A stretch of 59,601 bases of DNA from Lachnospiraceae bacterium (GTDB taxonomy: Bacteria; Bacillota; Clostridia; Lachnospirales; Lachnospiraceae). The notes beneath the pieces are model-generated. The model searched no databases. It had not been told where the DNA came from and saw only the letters and a program-made list of their open reading frames with translations. Positions 68 through 15,990 of this stretch are shown here, piece after piece. How positions within the stretch are numbered: the first letter of the stretch is position 1; each line of letters opens with the position of its first letter. The translations under genes and the position numbers were made by a program. Location of the stretch: the NCBI GenBank assembly GCA_910575005.1, contig CAJTCL010000025.1, forward strand, positions 1 through 59,601. Reading direction: 5' to 3'.

Positions 68-155
68 CACTTTTCGGTTCTTCTGTGTGAATTTTTTAGG
101 GTATTGTAAATTTTTCCTTTACAAAGTATGGAAGATTTGTTATACTTCTATAAAT

Positions 156-229
156 GGCCTAGTGGCTCAGTTGGTTAGAGCGCCGCCCTGTCACGGCGGA
201 GGTCGAGGGTTCGAGTCCCTTCTGGGTCG
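156..229 (+). tRNA. tRNA-Asp (GTC)
   Basis: A cloverleaf of 74 nt with acceptor GGCCTAG pairing with CTGGGTC (two G-U pairs), anticodon GTC at 190-192 between CCGCC and GGCGG stems, and a GGTTCGAGTCC T-arm. CCA is not encoded. It is the first of six tRNAs after the 23S gene. Confidence 0.96.
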
Positions 230-237
230 TTAAATAT

Positions 238-310
238 GGGATCTTAGCTCAGCTGGGAGAGCATCTGCCTTACAAGCAGAGGGTCACAGGTTCGAGCCCT
301 GTAGGTCCCA
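238..310 (+). tRNA. tRNA-Val (TAC)
   Basis: A 73-nt cloverleaf with acceptor GGGATCT/AGGTCCC, anticodon TAC at 271-273 in the loop CTTACAA, and a standard T-arm. CCA is not encoded. It lies 8 bp after tRNA-Asp. Confidence 0.96.
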
Positions 311-318
311 TTTTTAAT

Positions 319-391
319 GCCGATGTGGCTCAATTGGCAGAGCAGCTGATTTGTAATCAGCAGGTTATCGGTTCGAGTCCGATCATCGGCT
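319..391 (+). tRNA. tRNA-Thr (TGT)
   Basis: A 73-nt cloverleaf with acceptor GCCGATG/CATCGGC, anticodon stem GCTGA/TCAGC and loop TTTGTAA giving anticodon TGT at 352-354. CCA is not encoded. Confidence 0.96.
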
Positions 392-417
392 TGTTGGAAA
401 TTATATATTTTCATTAT

Positions 418-499
418 GGATGGATTCCCGAGTGGCCAAAGGGGGCAGACTGTAAATCTGTTGGCACCGCCTTCGAAGGTTCGAATCCTTCTCCATCCA
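418..499 (+). tRNA. tRNA-Tyr (GTA)
   Basis: A class II tRNA of 82 nt with a long variable arm, acceptor GGATGGA/TCCATCC, anticodon GTA at 452-454 and discriminator A. CCA is not encoded. Its T-arm and acceptor tail, with 11 bp of flank, are duplicated immediately downstream (see the repeat at 478-613). Confidence 0.96.
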
Positions 500-613
500 T
501 TTAGGATAAGTAGGAAAACAACCAAAACGGTTCGAATCCTTCTCCATCCATTTAGGATAAGTTAGGAAAGTAACTAAAGCAGTTTGGATCTTTCTTTATC
601 CATTTAAGAATAG
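478..613 (+). repeat. Three tandem copies of the tRNA-Tyr 3' tail
   Basis: The 33 bp at 478-510 (end of tRNA-Tyr plus TTTAGGATAAG) recur without a mismatch at 529-561, a 51-bp period. A third, decayed copy at 581-613 keeps about three quarters of the positions. The spacers (TAGGAAAACAACCAAAA and TTAGGAAAGTAACTAAAGC) are also related, so this looks like tandem duplication of a unit of about 51 bp. The second and third copies lack the 5' half of a tRNA and cannot be functional tRNAs. Confidence 0.9.
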
Positions 614-676
614 ATAAAAAGGGTTAGCAGTATAACAGAATCTTTTTATTTATTCTGACAATTAAATATTTATTAT

Positions 677-750
<74 letters not shown>

Positions 751-758
751 TTTCAATT

Positions 759-831
<73 letters not shown>

Positions 832-833
832 CG

Positions 834-8786: not shown

Positions 8787-10325
8787 ATGAATATATCAAC
8801 AATTGTAATTTTGCTGGCATTTGCCGTGTACCTCGCGATGATGGTGGCGGTGGGGGTATGGTCAATGCGTAAAACAAACGGGGCAGATGATTATTTTCTG
8901 GGCGGCAGAGGCTTATCTGGACCCGTGGCGGCAATGTCTGCGCAGGCTTCTGATATGAGTGGCTGGCTGCTGATGGGATTGCCAGGTTCTATCTATGCAT
9001 TGGGAACTGGACAGGCGTGGATTGCCATAGGTTTAGGATTAGGAACAATTATCAATTGGCTGGTGATAGCTAAGCCGTTGCGTTCTTATACTATTGTTGC
9101 GGACAATGCTATGACTTTGCCAGAATTTTTTGGCAATCGTTATCATGATAAAAACAAAGTATTGCTTGGTATATCATCGGTAATTATTGTAATTTTTTTC
9201 TTGGTTTATACTGCTTCCGCACTGGCTTCTGGCGGAAAGTTATTTAATTCTGTATTTGGTGTGAATTATCATATCGCGCTTTTAATTGGTGCAGTGGTTA
9301 TATTATTGTATACATTTTTGGGCGGATTTTTTGCAGTATGTACCACAGATTTTATCCAGGGCAGTTTGATGCTGGTAGCGCTGTTAGTAGTGCCGCTGGT
9401 GGCATGGGGATATGTGAGCGGAGATTTTTCCAATTTGATTACCCAAAGCGGGGTGGAATCTGCCCATTACATGAGCCTAATGTATAATGGCGATCATCCG
9501 ATTACCTTGGTAGAAATCTTGTCCAATCTGGCCTGGGGACTTGGGTATTGTGGTATGCCACATATTCTTGTACGTTTTATGGCCATTAAGAATGAGAAAG
9601 AATTAAAGAAATCTTCTGCGATTGCTATTGTCTGGGTGGTATTGTCCTTGTCTCTGGCAGTGGTCATCGGCGTGGTTGGCCGAGCATTTTTGTTTCCAGA
9701 GATTTTGGGCGAGACAGAGGGAGCGGCAGCAGCAGAATCCGTATTTATTGAAATGATTCAGAAAATATTTACAGAACTTTTGCCGTTTTCTTTTGTCGGT
9801 GGAATTTTCCTCTGTGGTGTTTTGGCGGCAATTATGTCTACTGCAGATTCGCAGCTATTGGTTTGCTCCTCCTCAGTCTCAGCAGATATATATAAAGATA
9901 TTTTTAAGCCGCAGGCGTCAGATAAGACTGTCTTGCGTGTGGGACGTATTACTACTGTGGTAGTGGCGCTTTTAGCAGTTGTGATCGCATGGGACCCTGA
10001 TAGTTCTATTATGGCGCTAGTGTCTGATGCATGGGCAGGCTTAGGTTCTGCGTTTGGTCCGCTGGTTGTGATGAGTTTGTTTTGGAAGAGAACAAATCTT
10101 CCAGGAGCAATTGCTGGATTGATATCTGGGGCAGCTACTGTGTTAATTTGGGATTATATACCGTTGATAGATGGTAAGACAATTGCCGCAGCTACAGGAT
10201 TATATTCCTTATTGGTTGGTTTTTGTATCAGTATTGTGTGTATCGTGGTTGTCAGTCTGGTGACAAAAGCACCAGAACAGGCAGTGTTGGATGAGTTTGA
10301 GGCATATAAGAAATATCAGGAATAA
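8787..10325 (+). CDS. putP: sodium/proline symporter (PutP)
   Basis: This 512-residue member of the sodium:solute symporter family has about 13 membrane segments and takes up proline with Na+. The N-terminus holds GVWSMRKTNGADDYFLGGRGLSGPVAAMSAQASDMSGWLLMG, followed by the GLGLGTIINWLVIAKPLR segment characteristic of PutP. ADSQLLVCSSSVSADIY matches the PutP helix with the conserved SSS. The start at 8787 follows AAAGGAGG by 8 bp; a longer in-frame start would add 16 unrelated residues. It seems monocistronic and is preceded by the palindromic element. Confidence 0.93.
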   Translation: MNISTIVILLAFAVYLAMMVAVGVWSMRKTNGADDYFLGGRGLSGPVAAMSAQASDMSGWLLMGLPGSIYALGTGQAWIAIGLGLGTIINWLVIAKPLRSYTIVADNAMTLPEFFGNRYHDKNKVLLGISSVIIVIFFLVYTASALASGGKLFNSVFGVNYHIALLIGAVVILLYTFLGGFFAVCTTDFIQGSLMLVALLVVPLVAWGYVSGDFSNLITQSGVESAHYMSLMYNGDHPITLVEILSNLAWGLGYCGMPHILVRFMAIKNEKELKKSSAIAIVWVVLSLSLAVVIGVVGRAFLFPEILGETEGAAAAESVFIEMIQKIFTELLPFSFVGGIFLCGVLAAIMSTADSQLLVCSSSVSADIYKDIFKPQASDKTVLRVGRITTVVVALLAVVIAWDPDSSIMALVSDAWAGLGSAFGPLVVMSLFWKRTNLPGAIAGLISGAATVLIWDYIPLIDGKTIAAATGLYSLLVGFCISIVCIVVVSLVTKAPEQAVLDEFEAYKKYQE

Positions 10326-10398
10326 GATGATATTAATGTTGTTCAAGAAATTAGAATTTTTTATAAAATAAACAATTCCTTTTTTCTGTAATATATAG

Positions 10399-10433
10399 TA
10401 TAATGATAACATAAACCCGCGTTTTGAAACGCG
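10399..10433 (+). promoter_or_regulatory. xfp promoter -10 box and leader palindrome
   Basis: TATAAT (10399-10404) is followed by CGCGTTTTGAAACGCG (10418-10433), a 7-bp inverted repeat with a 2-nt loop placed at about the transcript start and directly upstream of the AGAAGGGAG ribosome-binding site. It could be an operator or a 5' mRNA hairpin. No convincing -35 box is visible. Confidence 0.55.
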
Positions 10434-10453
10434 AGAAGGGAGAATTTTTTATT

Positions 10454-12826
10454 ATGTCAAATGATTTATTTATGACAGAGGAGTATTTATCAGACCTGAA
10501 CGCTTATTGGCGTGCAGCAAACTATCTGGCTGCTACTCAGTTGTATCTGCTGGATAATCCGATGTTAAGGGAACCGTTAACGAGGGAACAGGTGAAGAAG
10601 AAAATTGTAGGCCATTGGGGTACAGTGCCAGGACAGAACTTTGTATATGCACATATGAATCGTGCAATCAACAAATACGACCTGGATATGATTCTGATTT
10701 CAGGACCAGGACATGGCGGCAACTTCTTTGTGGCAAACTCCTATTTGGAGGGAACTTACAGTGAGGTATATCCAAACATCAGCCAGGATATGGAAGGTCT
10801 TAAGAGACTGAATAAGCAGTTCTCCTTCCCAGGCGGTATTTCCAGCCACGTTGCACCAGAGACTCCAGGTTCCATCAATGAGGGAGGTGAGCTTGGTTAT
10901 TCTATCGCTCATGCGTTTGGTGCAGTATTTGACAATCCAGATTTGATCGCTACTGTTATCGTGGGCGATGGTGAGGCAGAGACAGGACCTTTGGCAACAG
11001 CTTGGCATTCAAATAAATTCCTGAATGCGAAGAATGATGGTGCGGTACTTCCTATTCTTCATATGAATGAATATAAGATCAACAATCCTACCGTATTATC
11101 TCATATTTCTCATGATGAAGTGGAGAGTTACTTCCACGGATGCGGATGGAAACCATATTTCGTAGAGGGCAGCGATCCGATGACAATGCATCGTCTGATG
11201 GCAGAAGCTGTTGACAAGTGTGTAGAAGAGATTAAAGAAAATCAGAGAGCGGCAAGAGAAGATGGCAAGACCGAAAGACCATTCTGGCCAATGATCGTAC
11301 TTCGTACACCAAAAGGATGGACAGGCCCTAAAGTAGTAGACGGACTTCAGGTAGAAGGTTCCTTCCGTGCACATCAGGTGCCGATTACTATGGAGAAACC
11401 AGAACATATTGATCTGTTGAAGGAATGGCTGTTAAGCTATCATCCAGAAGAGCTGTTTGATGAGAATGGCGTATTAATTCCGAAGCTTCGCAAGATTGCA
11501 CCTACAGGTGATCGCAGAATCAGCGCTAATCCTCATGCGAATGGTGGTAAGCTGCTGCGCGATCTGCGTCTGCCAGATTTTAGAGAATATGGTATTGATG
11601 TGGAGAAGCCAGGTCAGTTAGAGGCTCAGGATATGCTGAAACTGGGTGCATTTATCCGTGATATCTTTAAATTGAATAAAGAAGCAAAGAACTTCCGTAT
11701 CTTTGGACCAGACGAGACTATGTCTAATCGTCTCTATGATGTATTTGACGAGGAGAAGAGAGACTGGAATGCAGATTATCATGATGCTGATGAGGATCTT
11801 GCAACAGACGGAAGAATTATGGATGCATACTTGAGTGAGCATATGTGTGAAGGCTGGTTAGAGGGTTATCTTCTGACAGGTCGTCATGGATTCTTCGCTT
11901 CTTATGAAGCATTTATCCGTGTAGTAGACTCCATGTGCGCACAGCATGCAAAATGGCTGAAGGTATGTAATGAGCTTCCTTGGAGACAGAAGATTGCTTC
12001 CTTGAACCTGATTCTTACCTCTAATGTATGGCAGCAGGACCACAATGGATTTACACATCAGGATCCAGGTTTCTTAGATCATATTTCTAATAAGAAAGCA
12101 GACGTTGTCCGTATGTATCTGCCACCAGATGCAAACTGTCTGTTGTCCTGTTTTGATCACTGCATCCGCAGTAAGAACTATGTAAATGTAATTGTAGCTT
12201 CTAAGCATCCTAGCCATCAGTGGCTGACAATGGAGCAGGCTGTAAAGCATTGTACACAAGGTATTGGTATCTGGGATTGGGCAAGCAATGACCAGGGTGA
12301 AGAGCCAGATGTTGTATTGGCATGTTGTGGTGATACACCTACCAAAGAAGCATTGGCAGCAGTTACTATTCTGCGCGATAATCTGCCAGAAGTTAAGATT
12401 CGTTTTATCAATGTAGTTGATATGATGAAACTTGAGCCTTACAGCAAGCATCCACATGGATTGACAGATGTAGATTATGACGCACTGTTTACTAAGGATA
12501 AGCCAATTGTATTTGCATTTCATGGTTATCCTACTCTGGTACATGAGCTTACATATGAGCGCCATAACCGCAATCTGCATGTACATGGCTATCTGGAAGA
12601 GGGTACTATTACCACTCCGTTTGATATGCGTGTACAGAATGAGATTGACCGTTATCACTTAGTAATGGATATTGTAAATCAGCTTCCACAGCTTGGAAAT
12701 CGTGGAGCATATCTGTTACAGAAAATGCGCGATACTCTGGTTGCACATGATCAGTATATTGCAGCATATGGTCAGGATCTGCCAGAAGTAAGAGAATGGG
12801 TATGGCATACACCAGAAGATAAATAA
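10454..12826 (+). CDS. xfp: xylulose-5-phosphate/fructose-6-phosphate phosphoketolase
   Basis: This 790-residue thiamine-diphosphate enzyme cleaves xylulose 5-phosphate (and often fructose 6-phosphate) to acetyl phosphate plus glyceraldehyde 3-phosphate (or erythrose 4-phosphate). Family signatures visible are [37 protein letters not shown] and the ThDP-binding [19 protein letters not shown]; later come [12 protein letters not shown] and the Xfp C-terminal domain with [16 protein letters not shown]. Length is as expected. ATG 10454 follows GGGAG. A TTG ten codons upstream lies inside the leader palindrome and is unlikely. In this region it could serve pentose (arabinose) breakdown. Confidence 0.97.
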
Positions 12827-12889
12827 GTATTGACTGAAAATGAATAGAGTGTCTTAGAAATCGTTCATAGAGACATTGCTGATAATAAA

Positions 12890-12925
12890 TTCCCTGCCAT
12901 TTAATAAATGGCAGGGAGTTTTTTA
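12890..12925 (+). terminator. Terminator of xfp
   Basis: TCCCTGCCATTTA and AAATGGCAGGGA form a strong hairpin followed by GTTTTTT, about 65 bp after the xfp stop. Confidence 0.92.
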
Positions 12926-13365
12926 GGTATTGGACGATCAGAACTTTCACACGAAGGATCGGACTAATTGATTTTGCTGTATGACGATCTTTACATATGC
13001 AACAGTTTAGAAACTGAAAGATAAAAAATAACAAATTGCAGTTTGTAGGAATGTTAAGTGAGTGCAAATTCTACAATTACATATTAGAAAATGTATGGTA
13101 TTTCAAGTTTTATACAATGAGAACATTTTTCCGAAGAGTGAGTATTTTTATAAAGCTGTAACAGTAAAAAACATGTTTTGTTAAAATTTGTTAGAATATG
13201 TAGAAGTTTTCTTTCATGAAAGGTATAATGATAATTATATAGATGCAACAAATCTATAAATTAACGTATCAATTAATAGTCTGAATAGGATTGAGAAGTT
13301 AAAAAATTTTTTAACTATTTTGATAAAGGTGATAAATCCAAAGATAAGAAAGAGGAGAGTGTTAT
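12926..13365 (+). promoter_or_regulatory. 440-bp AT-rich upstream region of the helicase-nuclease gene
   Basis: There is no gene in this stretch. A -10 box TATAAT lies at 13224-13229, immediately preceded by the perfect 12-bp palindrome CTTTCATGAAAG (13211-13222), so a repressor bound there would block the promoter. A perfect 20-bp palindrome, AGTTAAAAAATTTTTTAACT, is at 13297-13316 in the likely leader. The ribosome-binding site AGAGGAGAG is at about 13351-13359. No good -35 hexamer is visible. Confidence 0.55.
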
Positions 13366-15990
13366 ATGGGTGCAGATTTAAATTTAGAGTTATCAAGTGA
13401 ACAGCAGTTATTTATAGAGAAAGCAATCCAGGGAAAAAATATTCTCGTAGATGCTTGTATTGGCAGCGGAAAAACGACAGCTATTCAAAATTTGTGTAAT
13501 CAATTACCGAGCACGAAAAAGGTTTTATATTTGACATATAATAGGCTTCTGAAATTAGATGCAAAGTCTAAGATTAAAAAAAGAAATGTTACAGTAACAA
13601 ACTATCATGGGTTTGCATACATGATTTTAAAAAGAAGTGGTATATCAGCAGGGATTTCGGATTTGATACAGAGATTTTTGAAAGAAAAACCTACGATTGG
13701 AAAATATGATGTTTTGATTATTGATGAATATCAGGATATTGAGCAGGAACTGGCCGGATTATTACAGTTAATAAAAGACAGTAATCCACAGATACAGATT
13801 ATTGCGGTTGGTGATATGGAGCAGAAAATATATGATAAAACAACATTAAAAGTGGAATCATTTATGAAAGGATTTCTAGAAGAACATCTTAGATTGAAAT
13901 TTACCCAATGTTTTCGTTTGTCAAATAATCTAGCATCTATGCTCGGAAGGGTTTGGAAAAAACAAATCATAGGAGTAAATAACTCCTGCAAGGTGCAAGA
14001 AATGTCAAAGAAAGATGTGATACCATTTTTGGCAGAGCAAATTCCAGCAGATATTTTGTGTTTAGGAGCAAGAACAGGTGCAATGTCTGACACACTCAAC
14101 ATTTTGGAAGAAAAATATCCAGATAAATTTAATAAGAACACGGTGTATGCAACGATATCAGATTATGATTCAATGGGAAAAACGGAACCAAAGGAAGATT
14201 CTGCAATCTTTACAACTTATGACAGCAGTAAAGGTTTGGAAAGAAAAATTTGTGTTATTTTTGATTTTACAGAAAGCTATTGGAGTGTAAGAATATCAAA
14301 GCCGCAGCAATTATACACAATATTGAGAAACATTTTCTGTGTTGCTGCCAGTAGAGGGAAAAATCAAATTATTTTTGTAAAATCAGATGAGGCCATGTTG
14401 TCTGAAAAGACACTCTCAACATATGTAGAGACAAATCAAAAATTTGAAGATTTAGGTATGAGTAAAATGTTTGATTTCAAGTATAAAGAAGATGTGGAAA
14501 AGTGTTTTTCACTGTTAAAAATATCTAAGCTGGAACAAACAAATAATTCAATCATAAATATAAAAAGTGCGGATGCCCTGATAGATTTATCGCCTTGTAT
14601 CGGCATCTATCAAGAGGCAGACTTTTTTGAGAATTATCAAATAGATGAAGATATAAAACTTGAAATTTTATTAAATCCTGAATTAAATGGATTGTATACA
14701 GAAGCGGTAAAGAATAGTACCCTAAACAATAAAATATTATTTTTAGTTTCACTTGAGACGAAACAGAAGAGATACAGAACCCAGGTGGTAACTCCGTTTG
14801 TCAGTGAAGAACAAAGCGCGTTAATGAGAGCTCGGCTAGAAACGCGATTGAATAGAAATGAGAATGCACAGGTTCCCTGTCAGATAAACTTTTATGATCC
14901 CCAAAATGGAAAGCCTATCTTTTCAGCCAAGGGATTTGCTGATGTGGTTAAGGATGATATGGTGTATGAATTAAAATTTGTATCAGAATTAACACATGAA
15001 CATTTCTTGCAGTGTGCTTGTTATATGGTTGCGATGAAGTTGCAAAAAGGGATTTTATGGAATACAAGAGATAATACATTGTATGAAATCAAAGTACCAG
15101 ACCGGAAAGCATTTTTGAATGCTGTTGCAAAGACTGTTACGAAGGGAGTAATAGAAAACTATTATGAACCAAATATATTTGAGAAGACAAAAGAAGATAA
15201 GATAGAAAACTTTGCTGTCATTGATACCGAGACAAACTGGAATGATGAGGTAATGTCGATTGGTGTAGTAGTTGCTGATTCCAAAACTTTGAAAAAAATT
15301 GATTCCAAATACTATATTTTTGATCCTGAATATAGAGCAGGCGGAATGTATGATAATCAATTAAGGCTTGACGAAAAAGGCGCCTGCGTTACAAGCAGAA
15401 GACAGGCTTTAGAGGAGATAAAACAGTGGCTGGATCATTATCATGTGCGGAAATTTTTTGCATATAATGCCTCTTTTGACAAGAAACATTTGCCAGAGTA
15501 TTTTGAGTATCAATGGTATGATATTATGCGTTTGGCGGCATATCGTCAATATAATAACTCTATACCAAGTTCTGCGGATTGCTATAAGACAGGGAGATTG
15601 AAACGAGGGTATGGTGTTGAAAATATATTGAAAATGCTTAGCGGTAATCATAGATATTATGAGACACATAATGCTGTTTTAGATGCAGAGGATGAATTAC
15701 AGATTATGCAATTGCTAGGGCATGGATTAAATGAATATGAGATTGCGTTGCTATCGGATAAGAATATTTCAATGGCAGGACAACAGCAAAGTGAAGTAAA
15801 ACCTTCAAGAATAATAGAACAGCAAAGTGATGTGAAACTTTCAAGAATAATAGAACAGCAAAGTGAAGTAAAACCTTCAAAAGTCATAGAACAGTATCAA
15901 AGTGATGTGAAACCTTCAAATATCACAACAAATCAATCCAAACGGAAAAGGGGCATTCTGTCTTGGCTTTTTGGAGATAGAAGGGATTGA
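13366..15990 (+). CDS. SF1 helicase / PD-(D/E)XK nuclease / DEDDh exonuclease fusion protein
   Basis: This 874-residue protein joins three nucleic-acid modules. Residues 12-390: UvrD/Rep-like SF1 helicase with Walker A IGSGKTT (32-38), Walker B LIIDEYQD (117-124), motif III VGDMEQ, QCFR (181-184), motif V TTYDSSKGLE and motif VI VAASRGKNQI. Residues about 490-600: PD-(D/E)XK nuclease with D526, E535-L-K537 and Q549-xxx-Y553, the Cas4/RecB arrangement. Residues about 614-785: DnaQ-like exonuclease with D620, E622, D705, H768 and D773. Then come 12-residue repeats (about 806-855) and a basic/hydrophobic tail, KRKRGILSWLFGDRRD. It is an isolated gene with its own promoter region and terminator, more AT-rich than its neighbours. 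I do not recognise this combination as a named system. A DNA-repair or anti-phage role is inference. Confidence 0.8.
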   Translation: MGADLNLELSSEQQLFIEKAIQGKNILVDACIGSGKTTAIQNLCNQLPSTKKVLYLTYNRLLKLDAKSKIKKRNVTVTNYHGFAYMILKRSGISAGISDLIQRFLKEKPTIGKYDVLIIDEYQDIEQELAGLLQLIKDSNPQIQIIAVGDMEQKIYDKTTLKVESFMKGFLEEHLRLKFTQCFRLSNNLASMLGRVWKKQIIGVNNSCKVQEMSKKDVIPFLAEQIPADILCLGARTGAMSDTLNILEEKYPDKFNKNTVYATISDYDSMGKTEPKEDSAIFTTYDSSKGLERKICVIFDFTESYWSVRISKPQQLYTILRNIFCVAASRGKNQIIFVKSDEAMLSEKTLSTYVETNQKFEDLGMSKMFDFKYKEDVEKCFSLLKISKLEQTNNSIINIKSADALIDLSPCIGIYQEADFFENYQIDEDIKLEILLNPELNGLYTEAVKNSTLNNKILFLVSLETKQKRYRTQVVTPFVSEEQSALMRARLETRLNRNENAQVPCQINFYDPQNGKPIFSAKGFADVVKDDMVYELKFVSELTHEHFLQCACYMVAMKLQKGILWNTRDNTLYEIKVPDRKAFLNAVAKTVTKGVIENYYEPNIFEKTKEDKIENFAVIDTETNWNDEVMSIGVVVADSKTLKKIDSKYYIFDPEYRAGGMYDNQLRLDEKGACVTSRRQALEEIKQWLDHYHVRKFFAYNASFDKKHLPEYFEYQWYDIMRLAAYRQYNNSIPSSADCYKTGRLKRGYGVENILKMLSGNHRYYETHNAVLDAEDELQIMQLLGHGLNEYEIALLSDKNISMAGQQQSEVKPSRIIEQQSDVKLSRIIEQQSEVKPSKVIEQYQSDVKPSNITTNQSKRKRGILSWLFGDRRD
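15784..15930 (+). repeat. 36-bp tandem repeat near the 3' end of the helicase-nuclease gene
   Basis: Four in-frame units start at 15784, 15820, 15856 and 15892 (the last carries a 3-bp insertion). They encode variants of QQSEVKPSRIIE. Units alternate between SEVKPS and SDV(K)LS/PS forms, suggesting duplication of two-unit blocks. The array is coding and short, not a CRISPR. Confidence 0.88.

Follow-up and report, generated by a model that had tools for sequence, protein, structure and literature searches.

Host RecBCD or AddAB is usually credited with finishing off invader DNA that has been cut. The closest described proteins to the one considered here are UvrD-Cas4 fusions, which occur alone or in a range of contexts, restriction-modification (R-M) among them, and have a predicted defence role (Hudaiberdiev et al., 2017; PMC5704561). 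In a 59,601-nt stretch of Lachnospiraceae bacterium DNA (GCA_910575005.1, contig CAJTCL010000025.1, forward strand; the whole stretch is called the window), we found that the gene at 13366..15990 (+) encodes in one 874-aa polypeptide a superfamily 1 (SF1) helicase, a Cas4/RecB-like nuclease and a DEDDh exonuclease. It is a conserved, mobile three-activity enzyme that likely serves defence. The first-pass annotation of the window had read the gene as such a fusion, in a combination that it did not recognise. We found no description of the triple combination, or of the operon-like arrangements reported below, in the open-licence literature (weak evidence of absence); fusions of a helicase with a Cas4-like nuclease are already known and linked to defence (PMC5704561). 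No characterised homologue of the same architecture was found in that literature either.

Domain architecture and active sites

The gene is a single open reading frame (ORF) of 874 codons with an ATG start and no internal stops, and its reading as a three-domain fusion draws on the ORF, Pfam, PHROG and a predicted model. Residues 1-356 (13366..14433, +) form the SF1A (UvrD-like) helicase core with Walker A K36 and Walker B D120/E121. The PD-(D/E)XK nuclease domain follows at residues 360-606 (14443..15183, +; D526, E535, K537, Q549, Y553), and the DEDDh 3'-5' exonuclease domain at residues 612-795 (15199..15750, +; D620, E622, D705, H768, D773). An active-site alignment of 54 rows was made, with 43 helicase/nuclease rows and 30 exonuclease rows (19 fused, 11 separate). 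K36, D120 and E121 are present in 43 of 43 helicase rows. The nuclease residues are present in 42 (D526), 39 (E535), 40 (K537), 40 (Q549) and 41 (Y553) of 43 rows, the deviating rows being L068, L071, L079 and P0203. The complete D-E-D-H-D catalytic set of the exonuclease is found in 30 of 30 rows. The motif residues lie where the first-pass annotation had placed them and are conserved across relatives, with one correction: its Walker A lysine K37 is K36.

In the window protein, Pfam detects AAA_19/UvrD in the N-terminal half and PDDEXK_3; the full-length search (E up to 1) misses the exonuclease domain and finds no PF12705 match. Over 28 members, the nuclease matches PDDEXK_3 in 26, Cas_Cas4 in eight and PF12705 in one (E 0.075). 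Among the four iron-sulfur cysteines of the Cas4 type, one cysteine is invariant in 28 of 28 rows and missing from two actinomycete relatives. Fold comparison matched the helicase and nuclease domains to AddA/AdnB/RecB, and together with Pfam this bears out the earlier assignment of the middle domain to the Cas4/RecB type of PD-(D/E)XK nuclease. With the nuclease profile, a sequence search of the PDB returned two matches only, both implausible.

The exonuclease domain was recognised by PHROG 192 (DNA polymerase exonuclease subunit; residues 572-788, 8.8e-9), and a PHROG phage DNA-helicase family also matches the protein (7.8e-30). The best PDB match of the exonuclease profile (A7) is the PolC exonuclease 2p1j, which is weak (E 0.015), and the cut-out domain gives an Rv2179c-like match below threshold. 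Two of the 12 members of the A7 profile also match a PcrA/UvrD tudor domain, and one a CarD/TRCF RID domain, in both cases weakly. The exonuclease domain has a high predicted local distance difference test score (pLDDT) within the full model; the fold-search listings of longer models were filled by helicases, and Foldseek with the full model returned mainly helicases. No NCBIfam model scored above its own cut-off on the window protein. Judged from two predicted models, the two-domain fold comparison and the conserved active sites, the protein has three predicted domains with intact motifs in one chain.

Relatives, distribution and mobility

The fusion gene is real, far beyond chance, since 1817 database proteins match it and it is under purifying selection against the sister species (nonsynonymous divergence, dN, 0.026; synonymous divergence, dS, 0.152). 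Chance or misassembly was rejected on the same 1817 matches and on the occupied site in the sister genome. The best 120 of the 1817 are 69-99% identical, and the names among these 120 are two "AAA family ATPase" and two "hypothetical protein". When about 85,000 species genomes were scanned, this gave at least 58 close loci (L033-L090), some of them near-duplicates (L038/L039), and at least 78 in all, the remainder being weak helicase matches. The hosts of the close loci are Lachnospiraceae, Oscillospiraceae, other Clostridia, Solobacterium, Acholeplasmatales, Candidatus Scatousia, Metamycoplasma auris and actinomycetes. Two-domain actinomycete relatives, without the exonuclease, are about 38-42% identical, and two are on plasmids. 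Several two-domain relatives of about 1000 aa (P0135, P0136, P0192, P0196, P0213) carry an intein-type LAGLIDADG domain (PF14528).

The distribution is patchy. In surveys drawn evenly, with scoring confined to the few best candidates of each genome, any match was found in 31 of 299 genomes of the family (the helicase-nuclease part in about eight) and, at 1e-30, in 2 of 398 genomes of the phylum (one is G000, the other has the exonuclease only). Any copy was present in 3 of 29 genus genomes. Four copies were found in 2.9 million viral contigs, the fourth being L189, and a search of viral contigs with P0001 gave no relatives. No place covering 80% of the protein was found in 50,697 phage records, also at E 10, and an ordinary phage gene was rejected on this ground.

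The gene is accessory and horizontally moving. The two genes that flank it, which read as a phosphoketolase and an arabinanase-like gene, have orthologues 277, 81 and 392 bp apart in three congeners (G176, G324 and G325), and lie 3.3 kb apart in the window; the earlier proposal of an acquired one-gene locus agrees with this insertion. The gene is also AT-rich and isolated, as first noted: it has 33.8% GC (window, 40.9%; six nearby genes, 43-46%), and the nearest ORFs are 539 bp away upstream and, in convergent orientation, 119 bp away downstream. In the sister genome G312 the gene occupies this site too (94.6% identity over 849 aligned residues, 92% by BLAST over the whole), and G325 has it at another site together with a second, decayed copy (L135/L136, G325:C8). 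AddA (1076.7 bits) and an AddB-like gene (791.8 bits, cut-off 903.7) were located on contig C16. A housekeeping recombination gene was rejected because AddAB is separately present and the distribution is patchy.

Fused and separate exonucleases

The arrangement of the parts was compared over 61 loci, i.e., the 58 close loci and three viral-contig loci. In 43 of them the helicase-nuclease is accompanied by an exonuclease, as a fusion in 25 loci and as an adjoining gene on the same strand in 14, with four loci unclassified. The unclassified loci are L043, L058 and L075, which have broken frames, and L074, which is open across the three domains under the mycoplasma code. Some of the 14 adjoining cases may be broken fusions (L041, L060, perhaps others). 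Four of the adjoining loci, L061, L064, L067 and L113, have the exonuclease upstream of the helicase-nuclease. In L113 (a 147-kb viral contig) the exonuclease similarity spans 10022-10549 and contains no ORF of at least 90 aa; stop-codon recoding or decay of the gene may be the reason. The 61 loci yielded no further exonuclease match apart from a fragment of 144 bp in L080.

On a 71-row tree the arrangement labels cluster, yet they switch several times: fused nine times (at least three forced), adjoining ten (at least seven) and none eight (at least five), in a tree with many open inner branches and bootstrap not fully settled, and with broken fusions labelled adjoining inflating the count. 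The distances of the helicase-nuclease and the exonuclease correlate (r 0.85 for 38 pairs, 0.65 for 13 unfused pairs). Vertical inheritance may explain much of this correlation because species relatedness is uncontrolled.

Defence genes near the relatives

PADLOC was run at 1e-10 on the two genes of at least 120 aa that lie nearest on either side. From the 59 loci with contexts, 40 were picked by hand, setting aside near-duplicates, GC-rich contigs whose ORFs were doubtful and a few further loci; L037, L040 and L043 were also left out, giving 37 loci with 132 proteins. For the control, 40 regions at nth or nth-like genes were taken, with some genomes represented twice; four actinomycete regions and four without an nth ORF were left out, giving 32 loci with 127 proteins. 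The genes around nth are mainly housekeeping by reading.

Nine of the 37 loci (L033, L036, L048, L059, L062, L068, L070, L089 and L111) have R-M, type IV, Wadjet or pPIWI-RE genes within two genes; L033 was counted for its JetD. By the same yardstick these systems are found in 0 of 32 control loci. When the control is scored 2/32 through its two strongest other models (PDC-S01 and MzaA), the one-sided Fisher test gives p 0.040. In total 146 PADLOC models (25 listed) were matched around the family vs 22 around nth, tallies that differ from gene counts because many models can match one protein. A stronger point than the enrichment is the tight same-strand spacing behind three unrelated defence systems and, more loosely, behind a type IV enzyme. 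Measured between longest ORFs, the upstream gaps are 45 bp (L036), -4 bp (L048), 33 bp (L059), 33 bp (L062), 142 bp (L068), 2 bp (L070) and 29 bp (L089), so that six of the nine loci have a gap below 50 bp. TIR- or SIR2-like neighbours were also read in L057, L046 and L189, of which L057 and L046 have no PADLOC match at 1e-10. There is no fixed partner family and no fixed housekeeping operon among the neighbours; the commonest cluster, ABC-type ATPases by reading, is near 13 loci vs 76 for the gene.

Proposed role and alternative explanations

We favour, with somewhat better than even confidence, an accessory and horizontally moving DNA-end-processing enzyme that acts mainly in defence against phages or other invading DNA. 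It is probably a DNA-end shredder in defence because some relatives adjoin anti-phage or anti-plasmid systems. By analogy with AddAB/RecBCD, Dna2/Cas4 and DnaQ-type enzymes, the enzyme would most likely use ATP to unwind DNA from an end and degrade both strands. The SF1A helicase would load at a double-strand end or gap and travel 3' to 5' on one strand. The Cas4/RecB-type nuclease would cut the unwound strand, tentatively the 5'-ended one, as Cas4 and Dna2 can, and the DEDDh exonuclease would trim the 3'-ended strand. Linear invader DNA would then be quickly destroyed, with no Chi-like stop. The sequences themselves show the three domains and their active-site residues, the frequent linkage of the exonuclease, the mobility of the gene and its operon-like position behind end-making defence systems in some relatives. 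Polarity, strand assignment, processivity, the sparing of self DNA and the defence role are inferred. The window copy would act by itself or in trans, because the gene stands alone there.

Several observations weigh against a defence role. The window neighbours look metabolic by reading, and none seen by eye is a defence gene; the defence role first proposed for this locus is thus made plausible by the surroundings of some relatives and gains nothing from its own. The insertion site is shared with the sister species. No PADLOC model is dedicated to the family, the best of 16 matches being GajB on the helicase part only (6.4e-15). The exonuclease was not found in the DNA examined at 18 of the 61 loci (L088 is cut by a contig end), and the two-domain relatives sit on similar backbones of two actinomycete plasmids. 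The ExK motif is altered in 3 of 28 nuclease domains (L068, L071, L079) in otherwise conserved proteins; these altered catalytic residues suggest that some lineages can do without the PD-(D/E)XK activity. The hand-picking of loci followed a by-eye view of the neighbours, with viral L111 taken in and L112 and L113 left out. The Fisher p rises to 0.055 when the three dropped loci are counted as negative (9/40), to 0.063 when two near-identical loci are merged (8/36) and to 0.18 with all 22 unscanned loci as negatives (9/59). The enrichment over the control is therefore modest and suggestive only, since p depends on the loci counted, and part of the signal may reflect an accessory region rather than defence because nth, the control gene, is housekeeping.

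The gene may instead help a plasmid, an integrative element or a large phage to replicate, recombine or transfer, with the Clostridia copies being parts or relics of such elements. We regard this as unlikely, though it is the rival with most to recommend it. The relatives on Gordonia pGKT2 and Rhodococcus pGS01 have alike surroundings, beside a helix-turn-helix gene and a topoisomerase, and two long viral contigs (L112, L113) carry a family member. One integrase-like cluster is near four loci (L041, L047, L056, L071), recombinase- or relaxase-like ORFs were read in L035, L046 and L064, and the decayed G325 copy adjoins three ORFs that read as large serine recombinases. However, the plasmid relatives are only about 39% identical and lack the exonuclease, and the family is nearly absent from the viral contigs and phage records searched. 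The window copy is lone, and no recombinase-like ORF was seen beside it by reading (no systematic search for target duplications was made). A role in repair, with the enzyme resecting or clearing host DNA that is broken or stalled, also where the host's own restriction systems have cut it, appears rather improbable. Its helicase-then-nuclease order is that of AddA/AdnB/RecB, with fold matches, purifying selection acts on the gene, and adjacency to restriction enzymes fits damage control equally well. Yet AddAB is already present, only 3 of 29 genus genomes have a copy, no repair gene recurs among the neighbour clusters, and frames are broken or shortened in at least 5 of 61 loci (L043, L053, L058, L060, L075; assembly error may be included) besides the decayed G325 copy. 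Least probable is that the domains work independently of one another or on RNA, with the fusion as a convenience and the exonuclease as an Rv2179c-like RNase. The weak Rv2179c-like matches agree with it, as do the exonuclease genes L192, L193 and L195 in genomes with no reported helicase-part match, whose contexts are unreadable as defence. Against it, the best PDB match, itself weak, and PHROG 192 are both exonucleases of DNA polymerases, and the parts are linked in 43 of 61 loci.

The favoured defence role can be put in a bolder form, which we offer as a tentative possibility. R-M, Wadjet and type IV enzymes produce DNA ends, and a portable end-degrader behind them would make sense for this reason. 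The family would then be a portable "end-shredder", i.e., a minimal counterpart of AddAB whose two nucleases have unrelated folds, encoded in one fused gene or a two-gene pair. It would be a shared effector that completes the loss of invader DNA behind type I R-M, type IV, Wadjet and pPIWI-RE systems, and would also act solo as in the window. If so, the repeated joining of an SF1 helicase, a Cas4-like nuclease and a DnaQ-like exonuclease would be explained. Phages carry RecBCD inhibitors (PMC9836394), and a mobile end-degrader acting after restriction-type systems could provide a back-up that they do not affect. The enzyme is small and single-chain.

Upstream region and C-terminal tail

The upstream intergenic region (12827..13365) is partly conserved with G312 up to the AGGAG ribosome site. 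A perfect 20-bp palindrome at 13297..13316, about 50 bp before the start codon, may be an operator or a chance feature of an AT-rich stretch; G312 has a similar but different palindromic stretch at this position. A control region of its own, as first suggested for the gene, is plausible, although promoter-like matches are no commoner than in shuffles (17 vs mean 15.7). Six tRNA genes are clustered at the left end of the window (155-832).

The C-terminal tail (residues 801-874, 15766..15987, +) is predicted to be disordered (pLDDT <50) and has a basic KRKRGILSWLFG peptide at its end. Within it lies a 36-nt in-frame tandem repeat of 3.8 copies (15782..15919, +). Against the sister species the tail is unconstrained (dN 0.049, dS 0.050). 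Many homologues stop at the exonuclease without a tail, and close homologues of 850 aa have a shorter one. The repeat tail, which had been counted as part of the architecture, was rejected as a functional domain because it is disordered, unconstrained and often missing. In P0055, P0060, P0085, P0088 and P0108 a small extra segment (NDIAVRFEDGT.VEHTNKAKFV.GTI) replaces it at the ends of fused homologues.

Comparison with known systems

AddA and AddB models do not score above cut-off on the window protein, and AddA reaches 23 bits at the locus vs a cut-off of 707.65. AddAB has two nuclease centres, a property common to the present family. AddAB, RecBCD and AdnAB also share with it the helicase-nuclease order and both folds. 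They differ in that here a single chain of about 800 aa, or a pair of small genes, suffices, the second nuclease is of DEDDh type, and the enzyme is accessory with AddAB present besides. In Gabija the nuclease GajA is a separate gene for an OLD-family protein; GajB models match the helicase part only, whereas here the PD-(D/E)XK and DEDDh nucleases share one chain. DinG-type helicases with an exonuclease are set apart by the helicase, as DinG is described as an SF2 helicase (PMC11981726) and the helicase here is SF1. Closest are the UvrD-Cas4 fusions (PMC5704561), which likewise consist of an SF1 UvrD-like helicase and a Cas4-like PD-(D/E)XK nuclease. Compared by description, their nuclease is pfam12705, whereas that of the present family is PDDEXK_3, with pfam12705 in one of 28 members; and an exonuclease partner, unmentioned in the section of their description consulted, is present here.
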